NCBI GenBank assembly: GCA_963921825.1
Contig: OY997590.1
Span: 49,369,039-49,433,038, forward strand
Reading direction: 5' to 3'
DNA length: 64,000 bases
DNA from: Erodium maritimum
Lineage: Eukaryota > Streptophyta > Magnoliopsida > Geraniales > Geraniaceae
This document shows, piece after piece, positions 10,997 to 46,040 of the stretch (position 1 is its first letter; every line of letters starts with the position of its first letter). The notes beneath the pieces were generated by a model. The model ran no database searches. It was not told the DNA's origin and saw nothing but the letters and a program-made list of their open reading frames with translations. The translations under genes were made by a program, and so were the position numbers.

Positions 10997-13956
10997 TGTC
11001 ACGCCCTAAATCCGGTTTTGACCGAATTCGAGACGCGACTTAAGATAAAATAATAAAGATACAAAAATACGGTTCTCAAATGCAATTTAAAGCTCCAAAA
11101 GTACAAATGAGTGAACAGCTCAATAAGTGTAAAAGTAAACGAGTCAAAACAAGTCAAAGATAAAGTACGTCGCTAGACACTAGCTAAACCCTCGCCAGCT
11201 CCCAAGCTCCAAGAATCCTACTAGTACAGATCCCGCTCAACACCTGAAATACAACAAAGTAAGGGGGTGAGCTTACGCTCAGTAGGAAAAGTAGTTAAGG
11301 TTCTGAACCACAGTTTATCACCAGAGTAACCGTCCAATTAGGGCATACTAGTAAAGCACAACTATTAAAAGTCAAATTAAACCATTTCTCCAAGACAACG
11401 CGTGACCTTCACTCAGGCACAACCCGAAAAAAAACTCACAATGAATCGAACACAATACACTCTTCTCTACTTTGCTCTTGATACTCCTCACCTAACAATT
11501 CTCAATGGACAACGCCCATGGTTATTTCGCAACCGCACACACGTGCGAACTCGTACAGCAACACATAAATCAGGTATAACAACACCTCGAGTCACCACTC
11601 ACACAATAACCGAATCACACTTAGAACAACGCACAACACACACAACAGACCCGCACAAAACGCAGTACAACCATTCCAACAGCTCCGGCTATCACAACCC
11701 ATTCCATTTATGTCGTACCGGATCACGAAGCCTCGGTCCCGACATCTTCCCGTCACGTAGACTCGGGGTAACATCCCAGACCGGAAATCCCTCAGTCGGA
11801 CGTCTTTCTGTCACGTAGACTCAGGGCCTCACGTACAACGGACCGACACATACCTCGGTTGTAAGTCCTCCCGTCACAGAGACTTAGGATATCAATCACG
11901 CCATCCTTGGCCTCGATACACTACACCGGAACTATCCCTCGGTGTAAGTACCACTCCGGTTGTGCCTTTTCTTGGAACACACAAAGAGGGTATAACACGC
12001 AACACGAAGCCACAATGAGTCTCGGCATACCAACCGGACCAACTCAACGTAACACACAAACCGGTCTATCACTCACCCGGTCATATCACAACCAAGGGTT
12101 CACGTACATCAAACACGGCACACTTGCCCACACACAGTCACAACATGCAACACCGAGTATAATCTTATTTAGACTCTCACACAGCGGTTATAACACACAT
12201 CATGCATCTCAATCAGCACATAGTCCTAAGGCTCGACATGGCCATTCTACAAGCACGACAATTTCCCAAAATAATGAAAGCGGCTACACTAGTGAATCAC
12301 GTCCTACATGTTACTAAGACTCGTCCGGTTATTTATATCATATAAACGTTCGTTCCTGTTTTATTATTACCTAGCATGCATACTAGTAACTTTCCGTAAT
12401 TAAACCGGTATTCGCTACTTTCCCTACCTCAAGACGGTCACCACAGCTGCGTCTCCTAGTTGCTGACGTCCGGGCCTATCTCCGGTCTTCTTAGGCGAAG
12501 TCCAAGCGTGGGTTCAACTCCGGTCTTCTCGAGCGAAGTCCAAGTCTGATTTTAAAAGGTAAAACTTACAATCAGTTCCCGTACAGTCCAAATTGAAATC
12601 AACAAGTTGCCTTTTAGACTCGAACGGGTCAAAAAGAGGGATTATACGACGAATCATGTTCGAGCACCCGAGCCCCGAGCACAGAACCCGGTGCACGTTT
12701 CACGCGACACGGTTCCCAATGCACGAATTCTGAGGCACGATTCTCAATGCATGGATCCCGAGGAGTGGGTTTCGGGGCACAGTTCCCGAGGTGTCCCATT
12801 CAGCGTCCCCGCTTTTAATCCCATTCTAAGTCCGAATTAACAGTCCGGTGGTTCGATGTCCTAACGTCCTCAGATTCGTTCCAAAGTCCAGTAAAAACAA
12901 ATCTGATTTTTAAACCTTTTTTTAATTAAATTTGATTTTATTTTAATTTCCTTTTGAAAATTATTTTCTTTAATTTTCTGTTTCAATTTCGTTTCCAAAC
13001 GTCCAGATCCAAAGAGTGCTCGGGAACAAGAACAAAAAAGGGAAGAAAAAGGGCTCGGTTTCCAATTTCTGACTGACCACCGGCGGAGACGCCGGCGACC
13101 AAAGCCTCACGGTCGCGACTCTCACCGTAGGGACAAGGGACGACGGAAGGGCGGCGGAGCACGGGGAACCTCGCCTCGGATCTGGAACGACGGCGGCCTG
13201 CTCTTCTCGGTGGCGGGACGACGTCGACTCGCTGAAACTGAAGCGGCCCGAGGGAGGTACGGTGTCTCGCGAGTCCGAGCACCGTCTCCCGTCGCGGGTC
13301 AGGCTTGATACGATCGGAGGGGGGGGGGGGTTGTGGTGGTCGGAAACGGGCACGGGAGGAGAAGAGAAGAGGTGGAGGGCGAGAAGAAGCTCGGAGATGA
13401 CCGGCATCGAGCTGGACGGAGAGGATGAGAGGTAGGGGCGGCGAGAGGTTCGGGGAGAGAGAAGGGTCGGGAGAGGGAGTCGAGAGGACGACGTCTCGCG
13501 TGAAGAAGAAGAAGAAGAAGAAGAAGAAGAAGAAGAAGAAGAAGAAGAAGAAGAAGAAGAAGAAGAAGAAGAAGAAGAAGAAGAAGAAGAAGAAGAAGAA
13601 GAAGAAGAAGAAGAAGAAGAAGAAGAAGAAGAAGAAGAAGAAGAAGACGAAGTAAGGGTCAGAACCCTACTTTGGGGTTAAATACCTCGGGCCGGTGGCA
13701 TTTGGGCCTCAGACGAAGAGCGGGCCTCACGGCCCAGATAGAAGAGGGTGCTGAAAAACGGGGCGGCTTGGCTTGGGCCGGGTCTGGCCCGCCCGGTCCA
13801 GCTCCTTCTTTTTTCCCTTTTTTTTTGCAAAAGCTCTCGAACTTCGATCCGTTTTCCCACCACGGCGTTACCAAAAATCGACCCGATTTTTAACCTCGAC
13901 GTTCCAATCGAACAAAATTAATTAAAATAAATCTTTTTACGGAGGCGGTCTTCACA
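10997..13956 (-). mobile_element. Solo LTR, 2.96 kb, with perfect 5-bp target duplication
   Basis: The plus strand starts TGTCACGCCC and ends GGTCTTCACA, so on the minus strand the LTR runs TGTGAAGACC...GGGCGTGACA. ATCTT flanks both sides (10992-10996, 13957-13961). No internal coding region is present. Its 3' part resembles the LTR at 44209-46755: the block around GTCTAGCGACGTAC, the inverted motif GTGAGCGT/AAGCTCACCCC, and the terminal GGGCGTGACA. The most likely origin is LTR-LTR recombination of a Ty3-type element. It contains a GAA microsatellite and a G-run (near 13320). Confidence 0.88.
13502..13647. repeat. Long uninterrupted GAA/TTC microsatellite (about 48 units)
   Basis: About 145 bases of pure GAA repeat on the plus strand lie inside the solo LTR. 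It reads through as a poly-lysine frame, which is not a gene. Long GAA tracts are known to form triplexes and to expand. Confidence 0.97.
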
Positions 13957-39552: not shown

Positions 39553-42250
39553 TTAACTAAACAAAAGTAGTACAATTTTATTGGAGCTTATCAATATGAC
39601 CAACTGCTCCTCGTTAAAGTCTGATGTGTCCATATCATGTAGTTCTTTGTATTCAGTGTGATATTTGTCGAATTTGGCGTATAGCATCAGAACTTTGTTC
39701 GTCTTCTCACACTTTTCTTTGTCCATTTCAGTAATGGCTTGTACGTGGGTTTGTATACCCTTCCCCTTCCTTTTCGTGGACTTCTGGCCTAACGGTCTCT
39801 CTTGTACAGGGGGAAGAAATTGGGCTACTGTAACATCCCGCCGTCCCACACAGGGCCCCACGCGCGGCGATGTTAGGTCTGCAGCCCAATACACCCCAAC
39901 TCATCTGGTGTATTGTCCACAGACAAATACCAACCTAGGTTGTTGGTGAGACTTGAACCCAAGACCTCACCCTTTATAGCATTTCCTTGAGTGATGCTAT
40001 CACCAATTGAGCTGCAACTCAATTGGTGATAGCATCACTCAAGGAAATGCTATAAAGGGTGAGGTCTTGGGTTCAAGTCTCACCAACAACCTAGGTTGGT
40101 ATTTGTCTGTGGACAGTACACCAGAGGGGTGGGGTGTATTGGGCTGCAGACCTAACATCGTTGCGCGTGGCCCTGTGTGGGACGGCGGGGTGTTATAAAA
40201 AAGTGCACTTTTTTTGTAACATCCCGCCGTCCCACACAGGGCCCCATGCGCGGCGATGTTAGGTCTGCAGCCCAATACACCCCAACCCATCTGGTGTATT
40301 GTCCACAGACAAATACCAACCTAGGTTGTTGGTGAGACTTGAACCCAAGACCTCACCCTTTATAGCATTTCCTTGAGTGATTGGTGATAGCATCACTCAA
40401 GGAAATGCTATAAAGGGTGAGGTCTTGGGTTCAAGTCTCACCAACAACCTAGGTTGGTATTTGTCTGTGGACAATACACCAGATGGGTTGGGGTGTATTG
40501 GGCTGCAGACCTAACATCGCCGCGCGTGGGGCCCTGTGTGGGACGACGGGATGTTACAAAAAAAACCCAAGACCTCACCCTTTATAGCATTTCCTTGAGT
40601 GATGCTATCACCAATTGAGCTGCAGCTCAATTGGTGATAGCATCACTCAAGGAAATGCTATGAAGGGTGAGGTCTTGGGTTCAAGTCTCACCAACAACCT
40701 AGGTTGGTATTTGTCTGTGGACAGTACACCAGAGGGGTTGGGGTGTATTGGGTTGCAGACCTAACATCGCTACGCGTGGCACTGTGTGAGACGGCGGGGT
40801 GTTATAATTTTTATAACACCCCGCCGTCCCACACAGTGCCACGCGCAGCGATGTTAGGTCTGCAGCCCAATACACCCCAACCCCTCTGGTGTACTGTCCA
40901 CAGACAAATACCAACCTAGGTTGTTGGTGAGACTTGAACCCAAGACCTCACCCTTTATAGCATTTCCTTGAGTGATGCTATCACCAATTGAGCTGCAGCT
41001 CAATTGGTGATATCATCACTCAAGGAAATGCTATAAAGGGTGAGTTCTTGGGTTCAAGTCTCACCAACAACCTAGGTTGGTATTTGTCTGTGGACAGTAC
41101 ACCAGATGGGTTGGGGTGTATTGGGCTGCAGACCTAACATCGCCGCGCGTGGGGCCCTGTGTGGGACGGCGGGATGTTACAAAAAAAACCCAAGACCTCA
41201 CCCTTTATAGCATTTCCTTGAGTGATGCTATCACCAATTGAGCTGGTATTTGTCTGTGGACAGTACACCAGAGGGGTTGGGGTGTATTGGGTTGCAGACC
41301 TAACATCGCTGCGCGTGGCCCTGTGTGGGACGGCGGGGTGTTATAGCTACTACCTCCCTCGGGAAGATCAGAGGATATCATACCCGGTTGGGACTCACCA
41401 CCGAGAGCTATTACATATTCATCATTGGTGGGAGGACAAGTGGGTGGGATTGAGCTGTAAGCACCGGCCTCCATTTTGTACATTTCTTCGGTCCATCCGC
41501 TTTGATCATCGAACTTCTAGTTTCTATAAATGGTGACATACCTCCGCACCCGAGGCTCCTATCTATTCCAATAACTCTTTATGGATTTTCAAGGCCACTC
41601 TTATGGGTCAAAATGCCTCTCTTTCCATAATTGTTTGGAAATTGTGCCCTTAAAGGAGCTACCATCTTGAGAGTTGCCTTTAATGGGGTCTTTTCTTATG
41701 AATAGCCATTTGGTTCTTTTCTTATGAATATATGTATCAAGAGTGTGTCCATCTCAGGGAGCCATTTGGTTCTTCCTATATATTATCGGCTTCTTTTGTT
41801 GTATAGGGTCGAAAGTGGACGACTGAGATGTCATACGAGTGCCGCTGCTACCGTCGACGTGTTGGTGGTGGTATTTACTAGCCACGAGATAGCCGTAATA
41901 GTTGATAGCACGGTTGTGGTGCGGGGGATTAAAAGGTAGTGGTTAGAATGTACCTTGGTTGGACGATGGTTGGAATGTACCTAGGTTGAAACGCATTTAA
42001 CAACATAAATAATAATTAAAAATGAATTAATGAAATGAAAGACGATGTTGTTGGAATGTACCTAGGTTCCAATATTGTTGCATGAATGTGGTGAAACCGG
42101 AAGGGTCCCAACCACCGATAGTTGGGTTGAAAGGTGTGTTCAGCATCTCTTAATAGCCGCCTCCTTGAGATGTGTTGACTTGATCAATCGGGCGGTCTGA
42201 TTGGTCTGGCATGTAGTCTTGTTTCTTCAGTGAGGACGTCGGTTGAGTCG
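39553..42250 (-). pseudogene. PIF/Harbinger ORF1 (Myb/SANT-like, NAM-associated C-terminus), interrupted
   Basis: On the minus strand the N-terminal part lies near 42250-41350 (PTSSLKKQDYMPD, then an FNP...GGWDP-like motif, then PPTNDEYVIAL). The C-terminal part lies at 39833-39553 (QERPLGQKSTKRKG, then MLYAKFDKYHTEYKELHDMD). This is the layout of the ORF1 that accompanies the PIF transposase. The 1.5 kb SINE array separates the two parts. Additional stops occur in the N-terminal part, so it was not necessarily intact when the array arrived. Confidence 0.6.
39830..41345. repeat. Array of about ten alternating inverted SINE-like units
   Basis: The unit is about 185 bases. It starts near GCTCAATTGGTGATAGC (box A-like), has GGTTCAAGTCTC (box B-like) about 50 bases on, and ends GACGGCGGGGTGTTATA, so it looks like a tRNA-derived SINE. 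Approximate units and strands: 39830-40014 (-), 40015-40200 (+), 40218-40380 (-), 40381-40557 (+), 40563-40622 (-, partial), 40623-40806 (+), 40811-40995 (-), 40996-41180 (+), 41186-41242 (-, partial), 41243-41345 (+, partial). Heads meet at a near-perfect palindrome around GAGCTGCAGCTC. GCTACT flanks the whole array (39824-39829, 41346-41351). Confidence 0.88.
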
Positions 42251-45484: not shown

Positions 45485-45610
45485 TTCTGTGTTAAAGGGT
45501 GAGGTCTTGGGTTTGAGACTCATCAATAACCTACGGTGGTGATACAACGCATCTGTGTGAGGGTCTCACCACGGAGAGGGGTTAGGGTTGATGCGCTGCG
45601 GCGTAGTACG
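45485..45610 (+). repeat. Diverged SINE-like relic inside the LTR
   Basis: The stretch AAAGGGTGAGGTCTTGGGTT, followed by GACTCATCAATAACCTACGG, matches the box B region and the next 25 bases of the SINE unit at 40 kb with scattered changes. The downstream part does not match well, so only a piece is supported. Confidence 0.5.
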
Positions 45611-46040
45611 AACTAGGTTTCCCCTACGTGAACGGGTTGTTCGAGGTTTCCCTCACGTGAACGGGTGGTTTGAGGTTTCCCTCACGTGAGTGGGTTGTTT
45701 GAGGTTTCCCTCGCGTGAACGGGTGGTTTGAGGTTTCCCTCACGTGAACCGGTTGTTTGAGGTTTCCCTCACGTGAATGGGTGGTTTGAGGTTTCCCTCA
45801 CGTGAGTGGGTTGTTTTAGGTTTCCCCTATGTGATCGGGTAGTTGGGGTATTGATGTTGTGAGCAATAATGATTTACTTAGTTCAGAACATGATCCCCGT
45901 TTTGAGGTTTCCCCTACGTGATCGGGTAATTGGGTGTTGATATGGTGAGCAATAGTGTTTTGCTTAGTTGAGAATATGATCCTCATTCGAGGTTTTCCTT
46001 ACGTGAGCGAGTATTTGAGGTATTGATATCGTGAGCAGTT
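45605..46040. repeat. Minisatellite in the LTR, unit about 29 bp
   Basis: Seven or more adjacent copies of GTTTGAGGTTTCCCTCACGTGA (plus ACGGGTG or GTGGGTT) occur at 45615-45840, then looser copies with longer spacing to about 46040. The unit carries the palindrome CACGTG. Confidence 0.9.

Follow-up and report, generated by a model that had tools for sequence, protein, structure and literature searches.

An alternating ten-unit array in Erodium maritimum, probably one insertion of a small LTR-type element with a palindromic LTR that bears tRNA-like promoters

The described elements that come closest to the array reported here are small LTR retrotransposons of several kinds, which are cited from those parts of the publications that were available to us. 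The Helenus elements (TRIMp3) are TRIMs that carry a tRNA-like sequence in the LTR together with a primer site and a polypurine tract and are bordered by 4-5 bp duplications; in the parts seen, their plant cases come from Selaginella only, and the name Helenus occurs, among the matches listed, in a single paper (Kojima 2024, PMC10886601). The Cassandra TRIMs have a promoter derived from 5S rRNA and an internal domain of their own, and can occur as long tandem arrays (PMC7215508). A TA-TRIM has been described in which five LTRs and four internal parts lie inside one duplication pair (PMC4717578), and certain LTR retrotransposons of rice (more gypsy than copia) occur as duplication-flanked tandems that were possibly inserted as one (PMC11899658). 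As far as these sources were available, Cassandra arrays, TA-TRIMs and tandem LTR elements are precedents for the tandem form described below.

The DNA analysed here (the window, 64,000 nucleotides of Erodium maritimum contig OY997590.1, positions 49,369,039 to 49,433,038 of the forward strand) contains at 39829-41345 ten units in strict -,+ alternation, as claimed in an earlier note that had taken them for copies of a tRNA-derived SINE. We consider it probable, from the repeat structure and the element ends, that the array goes back instead to a single insertion event, that of a non-autonomous LTR-type element; its LTR would be a near-perfect palindrome [-+] of ~372 bp with two divergent tRNA-like (Pol III type 2) promoters. 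The units are oriented by their head, the tRNA-like side (CAGCTCAATTGG..., with box B GGTTCAAGTC), and their tail, the TGTTACA side; within the array heads adjoin heads, tails adjoin tails, and both outer ends are tails. The previously noted unit length of about 185 holds for six near-full-length units (U1, U2, U4, U6, U7 and U8, 179-186 nt), and the motifs AGCTCAATTGG and GGTTCAAGTC, which we take to be box A-like and box B, respectively, were found in the units. Some units are partial, again as described: U3 has 167 nt, U5 and U9 are head fragments of 59 nt and U10 is a 3' fragment of 102 nt. Chance is excluded as the source of the array, because the units are 92-100% identical to U4 and the inverted-repeat arms extend up to 306 nt at 98%.

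Read from the left, a target-site duplication GCTAC (39824..39828) is followed by the first palindrome of the array, which consists of U1 (39829..40014, minus strand), the left outer arm, full and of type A with a TGTAACA end, and U2 (40015..40197, plus), a full arm of type B with box A/B-like motifs. A palindromic joint of 17 nt, AAAAAGTGCACTTTTTT (40198..40214), lies between complete tails in the place of an internal region and is conserved at other loci. It leads to U3 (40215..40381, minus), a type A arm without about 19 nt of its head, and U4 (40380..40558, plus), also of type A and without 7 nt of its head. Next come U5 (40564..40622, minus), a head fragment after an A-run; U6 (40623..40806, plus), a full type B arm with a private GGCAC; a shrunken tail-tail joint, ATTTT (40807..40811); U7 (40812..40995, minus), a full type B arm that has GGCAC in common with U6; and U8 (40996..41181, plus), a full arm of mixed type. 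U9 (41187..41245, minus), a head fragment with a joint identical to that of U5, and U10 (41244..41345, plus), the right outer arm with a TGTTATA end, complete the array, and the right GCTAC (41346..41350) matches the left copy exactly. The layout is thus one of five palindromes (several truncated), four joints, of which only U2/U3 is intact and the other three are damaged, and one GCTAC pair.

The palindromic head-head joints of the earlier description exist at U1/U2 (GAGCTGCAACTC) and at U5/U6 and U7/U8 (both GAGCTGCAGCTC), but U3/U4 lacks its centre and U9/U10 links a head to an internal site; such losses of the centre are typical of palindrome decay. The tail joints, previously treated as one type, are of two kinds, those between complete tails (AAAAAGTGCACTTTTTT at U2/U3, shrunken to ATTTT at U6/U7) and A-run joints that run into truncated heads. 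The A-run joints U4/U5 and U8/U9 are identical (GTTACA-A7-CCCAAG), and this sequence is absent from the similar truncations listed at other loci. Since the truncation joint is identical and 40380-40622 is 98% identical to 41003-41245, a duplication of the block U4-U6 as U8-U10, in place or in the donor, is supported.

The repeat bounding the array had been given as GCTACT; a duplication does abut both ends, but it is 5 bp long (GCTAC), the sixth base overlapping the element, and the array ends that abut it read TGTAACA...TGTTATA. A match of at least 6 bp with a one-base wiggle was obtained for 0.35% of 4000 random position pairs of the window. The right flank is multicopy in the same genome (at least 67 matches; 432 first-look candidates, of which 40 were scored), and eight of its paralogues in the array's own genome were used for an empty-site test. 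Six of the eight (L122, L123, L124, L126, L127 and L128) align across the junction without the array and have a single target copy, GCTACT in L127 and L128 and GGTACT in the others, with short indels just left of the junction; in L121 and L125 only the right side is well kept. Because these paralogues show the junction without the array, the array was inserted, together with one GCTAC, into repeated sequence, and the empty sites bear out the earlier proposal of one bounded insertion. It is exceedingly improbable that the array was produced in assembly from foldback reads: chimeric long reads typically alternate perfectly, but here the flanks are not inverted, distinct variants mark the arms, the insertion has both a target duplication and empty sites, and there are 73 further loci with related arrangements in the genome. 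Both flanks (39570-39828 and 41346-41620) look coding on the minus strand, the right one within repeated sequence; a Pfam search of the flanking reading frames returned no family above the cut-off and one sub-cut-off family only.

A search of the array's own genome (763 Mb, 40 contigs) showed that other alternating arrays of the unit exist, as anticipated. Allowing 2 mismatches at most, the genome has 685 matches to the head pattern (0 to its reversed control); a mid-arm pattern gives 944, and the exact head-head joint is present at 51 places and a strict tail-tail pattern at 6, with 0 matches for each of the controls. The 73 array loci (L039-L111) include [-+] dimers, [-+][-+] tetramers and irregular forms, among them same-direction neighbours, and the window array has the most units among the 74 loci. 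The 73 were chosen by the exact head-head pattern (46), as best BLAST places (23) or from the head list (4), and palindromes are over-represented in them because the exact head-head pattern was the main route of choice. The head list yielded 25 distinct loci, 9 with a solitary unit and 16 with more than one, all 25 on a single contig (C1) among the matches listed. The head pattern covers columns 7-36 of the unit, so that solitary units cut further in are undetectable and a head edge at columns 1-6 is partly forced for those that were found; divergence estimates for the head are likewise biased downward by pattern selection. The unit alignment does not include L108 and L110, and the cut of L119 was misplaced. 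Collections of prokaryote and virus sequences, each searched with one exact unit pattern, gave 0 matches, and six unit strings were not found printed in the papers of the open-access literature searched.

The mobile form of this family is the palindromic pair [-+], ~372 bp long, with ends TGTAACA...TGTTACA. Complete tails on both outer sides are present at 47 of the 74 loci, and 44 of these were scored for duplications, the end motif not being found in L046, L068 and L074. An exact 5-bp duplication lies directly at the TGTAACA-like...TGTTACA-like ends (TATA also occurs) at 29 of the 44 loci, or 32 if one mismatch is allowed; shuffling the right flanks 2000 times gave a mean of 0.70 exact duplications and a maximum of 6. 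By layout, the exact duplications are found in 12/22 plain dimers and 17/22 longer forms. Under the scripted end rule 15 loci have no exact duplication, and three of these are misplaced ends at which a duplication is present (L039, GTATT; L044, CATTT; L062, GAGTT); others, among them L045, L049, L063, L064, L083 and L093, have none at their ends. The duplications at 29 of 44 loci agree with one of the two options of the earlier note, that arrays of this type move as a composite palindromic unit.

The same ends bear on the identification of the units as SINEs, which we do not maintain. Plant tRNA-derived SINEs have a box A/B head and a unit of ~180 nt, and LTR integrases usually make TG...CA ends with 5-bp duplications, which SINE insertion is not expected to do. 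The array family resembles the plant SINEs in its box A/B head and ~180-nt unit but differs from them in that no SINE-type duplication or outer poly(A) was found. That the array is a cluster of such SINEs, inserted by a LINE in alternating orientation or grown from one copy by foldback, is therefore very improbable: the tRNA-like boxes, the unit length of ~186 and the A-runs at inner tails would suit it, whereas 5-bp duplications abut TG...CA/TA ends, both outer ends are tails without poly(A), and the same arrangement recurs at many loci. The solitary units also argue against it. By comparison of the 5-mers before the head and after the tail by eye, none of the nine has a 5-bp duplication at its edges, and in this check none (0/9) has the arrangement of a SINE, with the 5' end at the head and, on the 3' side, poly(A) or a simple tail with a duplication behind it. 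The idea that solitary units are ends of larger elements was rejected as well, since for none of the nine does the upstream sequence, over about 1.5 kb, contain a TG end with the matching 5-mer before it. We infer instead that they are half-elements, broken or integrated at the palindrome centre. Two units with a retained joint (L115 and L120) show no convincing duplication.

Successive palindromes are linked by a palindrome of ~17 nt, A5-6GTGCACT5-6. A GTGCA/TGCAC core is present in 25 of the 27 tail-tail joints in which both tails are complete, typically 14-20 nt long, and the remaining two measure 3 and 7 nt. The sequence AAAAAGTGCACTTTTT occurs at 61 places in the genome, compared with 1 for the reversed control, and all eight usable examples have a family arm on at least one side. 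In position the joint corresponds to an LTR element's internal region, and the tetramers [-+]-joint-[-+] have TGTAACA..TGTTACA-type ends, that is, two LTRs around an internal part; in a palindromic LTR direct and inverted repeats coincide. On the best reading, two palindromes ~17 nt apart correspond to the LTR-internal-LTR form and a single palindrome to the solo-LTR form. What speaks for an LTR-type element is the repeat structure, the TG...CA/TA ends, the 5-bp duplications, the empty site, the conserved palindromic joint and the outer arms, which usually equal an inner arm (see below). On reading the 27 complete joints, neither a TGG-type primer-binding site nor a polypurine tract was seen; in most of them the left tail is followed by an A-run, and what precedes the right-hand TG/TA is a run of pyrimidines.

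The family shares with Helenus two TG..CA LTRs around an internal part, 5-bp duplications, as made by the plant form of Helenus, and a tRNA-like box A/B sequence in the LTR of a non-autonomous element; solo LTRs flanked by duplications and, for LTR-11_DR, tandem arrays are mentioned for Helenus too (PMC10886601). It differs in having a palindromic LTR, in which two tRNA-like heads are divergent, and an internal region of ~17 nt; neither a primer-binding site nor a polypurine tract was seen in the 27 joints. A word search of the available text of Kojima 2024 found no word beginning with 'palindrom', 'inverted' or 'hairpin' (PMC10886601). The best reading of these sequence features is that the family is close to Helenus/TRIMp3 but a distinct variant, not placed as a member because a primer site and a polypurine tract were not found on reading. 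Cassandra also combines a Pol III promoter in the LTR with LTR arrays in which the internal domain is the spacer, but its promoter is 5S rRNA-derived, its internal domain is its own, and a palindromic LTR is not mentioned in the text available (PMC7215508). The window array has the five-LTR, four-internal layout with one duplication pair of a TA-TRIM (at least three LTRs with internal parts), whereas TA-TRIMs have ordinary LTRs, one Zma-SMART case contains two inverted TRIMs, and 'palindrom' does not occur in the text seen (PMC4717578). The tandem elements of rice are not miniature palindromic ones (PMC11899658). No palindromic or foldback LTR of this kind was found among the matches listed from the open-access literature, mostly titles and abstracts, one set of which consisted of papers on retrovirus integration and two detection programs. 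Our verdict is that the array family would behave as small LTR elements bearing a Pol III promoter do.

The arms of the family fall into a few haplotypes, and five sites served to score their matching. Random arms drawn from different loci score 0.529 (12.5% identical), head-head partners 0.874 in dimer loci (16/27 identical) and 0.735 in longer loci (17/40), tail-tail neighbours 0.421 (1/19), the same arms of successive palindromes 0.694 (15/36) and first and fourth arms 0.725 (6/16). The matching of head-head partners declines with distance from the head: it is 0.88 at column 102 and has fallen to 0.66 by column 181. The other option of the earlier note, growth by foldback, survives in part. 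Foldback copying at heads is plausible because arms within palindromes match so well in the dimer loci; at tail-tail joints it was rejected as a general rule, the arms there being uncorrelated and matching no better than random ones. The exception is U6/U7, where the private variant is common to both arms across their tail-tail joint, and copying or conversion therefore happened at that one joint.

Of 28 outer arms, 20 are equal to one or other of the two inner arms, where 6.1 would be expected, in rows that are not all independent, three of them coming from the window: the equality is with the arm across the joint in 12, with the arm's own partner in 9 and with both in 1. Strand transfer between LTRs makes an arm equal to the one across the joint, and L087, in which both palindromes carry the same unlike arm pair, is the clean case of this. 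Equality with the own partner is the product of snap-back at the palindromic head or of conversion at the palindrome centre. Arm identity can also arise from gene conversion or unequal exchange after insertion, and unequal exchange between palindromes could raise both outer-arm figures; the 8 of 28 outer arms that match neither inner arm count against an LTR-type element, as do the want of a recognisable primer-binding site and polypurine tract and the loci scored without an exact duplication. One rival is a foldback or MITE-like DNA transposon, in which a transposase excises and inserts the palindrome with 5-bp duplications and tandems are nested or concatenated copies. We hold it to be unlikely. 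It would fit the palindromic structure, the TG..CA ends, which are compatible with inverted termini, and the want of a visible primer-binding site and polypurine tract; but the direct-repeat relation of arms across the joint (12/28), the conserved joint and the occurrence of paired and single forms are LTR-like, and nested copies should each own a duplication, whereas 17/22 longer forms carry one outer pair. It is also possible, though somewhat improbable, that the same LTR-type element is primed conventionally by a tRNA at a cryptic site, with the arms of the palindrome equalised later by gene conversion. Arms across the joint do behave like LTR copies, and conversion centred on the palindrome would give the decay of matching from head to tail; yet the ~17 nt between the LTRs leave no TGG-type primer site, and pyrimidines instead of purines precede the right-hand TG/TA in the 27 joints.

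The tRNA-like heads are not tRNA genes: that candidate was rejected since ARAGORN found no tRNA in the window and Rfam gave nothing at gathering score. miRNA genes were rejected too, all 73 Rfam matches at E up to 1 being below their gathering scores. Box B matches in 145/162 full arms, the box A pattern is intact in only 108/162, and TTTT is absent from 151/162 (a raw count). Divergence at box B is 0.011, rank 29 of 148 windows, and selection on the boxes was rejected as a conclusion, neighbouring windows being equally conserved. With regard to the small-RNA seeding proposed in the earlier note, one palindrome folded as DNA reaches -225.6 kcal/mol (z -37). A stretch of 93 nt that includes the head centre gives a better fold than its shuffles do (z -3.9). 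A Pol III-like promoter at the head, the lack of TTTT in most arms and a T-run in the joint mean that a transcript would cover one arm and end in the joint. The 35-nt 3' end of such a half-transcript alone folds no better than shuffles (z -0.26), and pairing in trans is accordingly an assumption of what follows.

For the preferred LTR-type element these features suggest a tentative route of propagation. The integrase of some autonomous LTR element would insert the palindromic element. More speculatively, Pol III might transcribe one arm from its head as far as the T-run in the joint and terminate there. Two such transcripts, whose 3' ends (AAAAAGUGCACUUUUU) are self-complementary, might then anneal by these ends, each priming reverse transcription on the other. 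The palindromic head, at the far end, could jump to the other end, as in normal strand transfer, or snap back and copy its own arm; either event would rebuild [-+] without a tRNA primer site or polypurine tract. This priming would leave tail-tail neighbours unrelated and head-head partners alike, as seen. That the family as a whole is an LTR-class retroelement of this sort, dispensing with tRNA primer and polypurine tract, its Pol III half-transcripts priming each other through a self-complementary terminator and its heads snapping back so that the palindromic LTR is rebuilt from half-length RNAs in each round, remains a rather unlikely proposal in our estimate. The cleavage of a palindromic retroviral sequence by HIV-1 integrase, as far as that source was available, is a possible lead, by analogy, for how joints might be cut (PMC1905944).

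If the array is what we take it to be, an LTR can be a full palindrome, and the tRNA-promoter TRIMs (TRIMp3) would gain a flowering-plant form, where the 2024 paper, in the parts seen, names only Selaginella among plants. The family might also offer a natural example of reverse transcription initiated without a tRNA. Its solitary half-elements resemble SINEs, so that a SINE-looking repeat can be misfiled; its palindromes supply ready-made hairpins for small-RNA work, and its arm haplotypes are a copy-choice record for testing strand transfer versus snap-back.

Several loci show further rearrangements. Two tetramers with different flanks, L044 and L107, have the same centre deletion (columns 33/15), in the second and the first palindrome, respectively, which implies that the palindromes of one element can differ. 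At three loci (L037, L094 and L117) the tRNA-like head is absent, and arm columns ~70-186 alone make up a short palindrome, whose fold lies at an internal palindrome, CAACCTAGGTTG. At L058 (744-913) a head fragment of ~56 nt is present three times in the same orientation inside one element. In L024, L047, L084, L091, L108 and L109 another repeat end, TTGGGGCGT(G/T/A)ACA-like, stands directly against heads or inside arms; it seems to belong to a different LTR element inserted into the palindromes, in several cases close to their centre. Elsewhere in the window, 12983-13666 contains long low-complexity reading frames (poly-Phe/poly-Ser) from a simple repeat, and at 45493-45600 there is sequence related to the arm's box-B region but diverged from it (85% over 48 nt), in which neither head nor tail can be recognised and which is adjoined by a 29-bp tandem repeat at 45615-45844.
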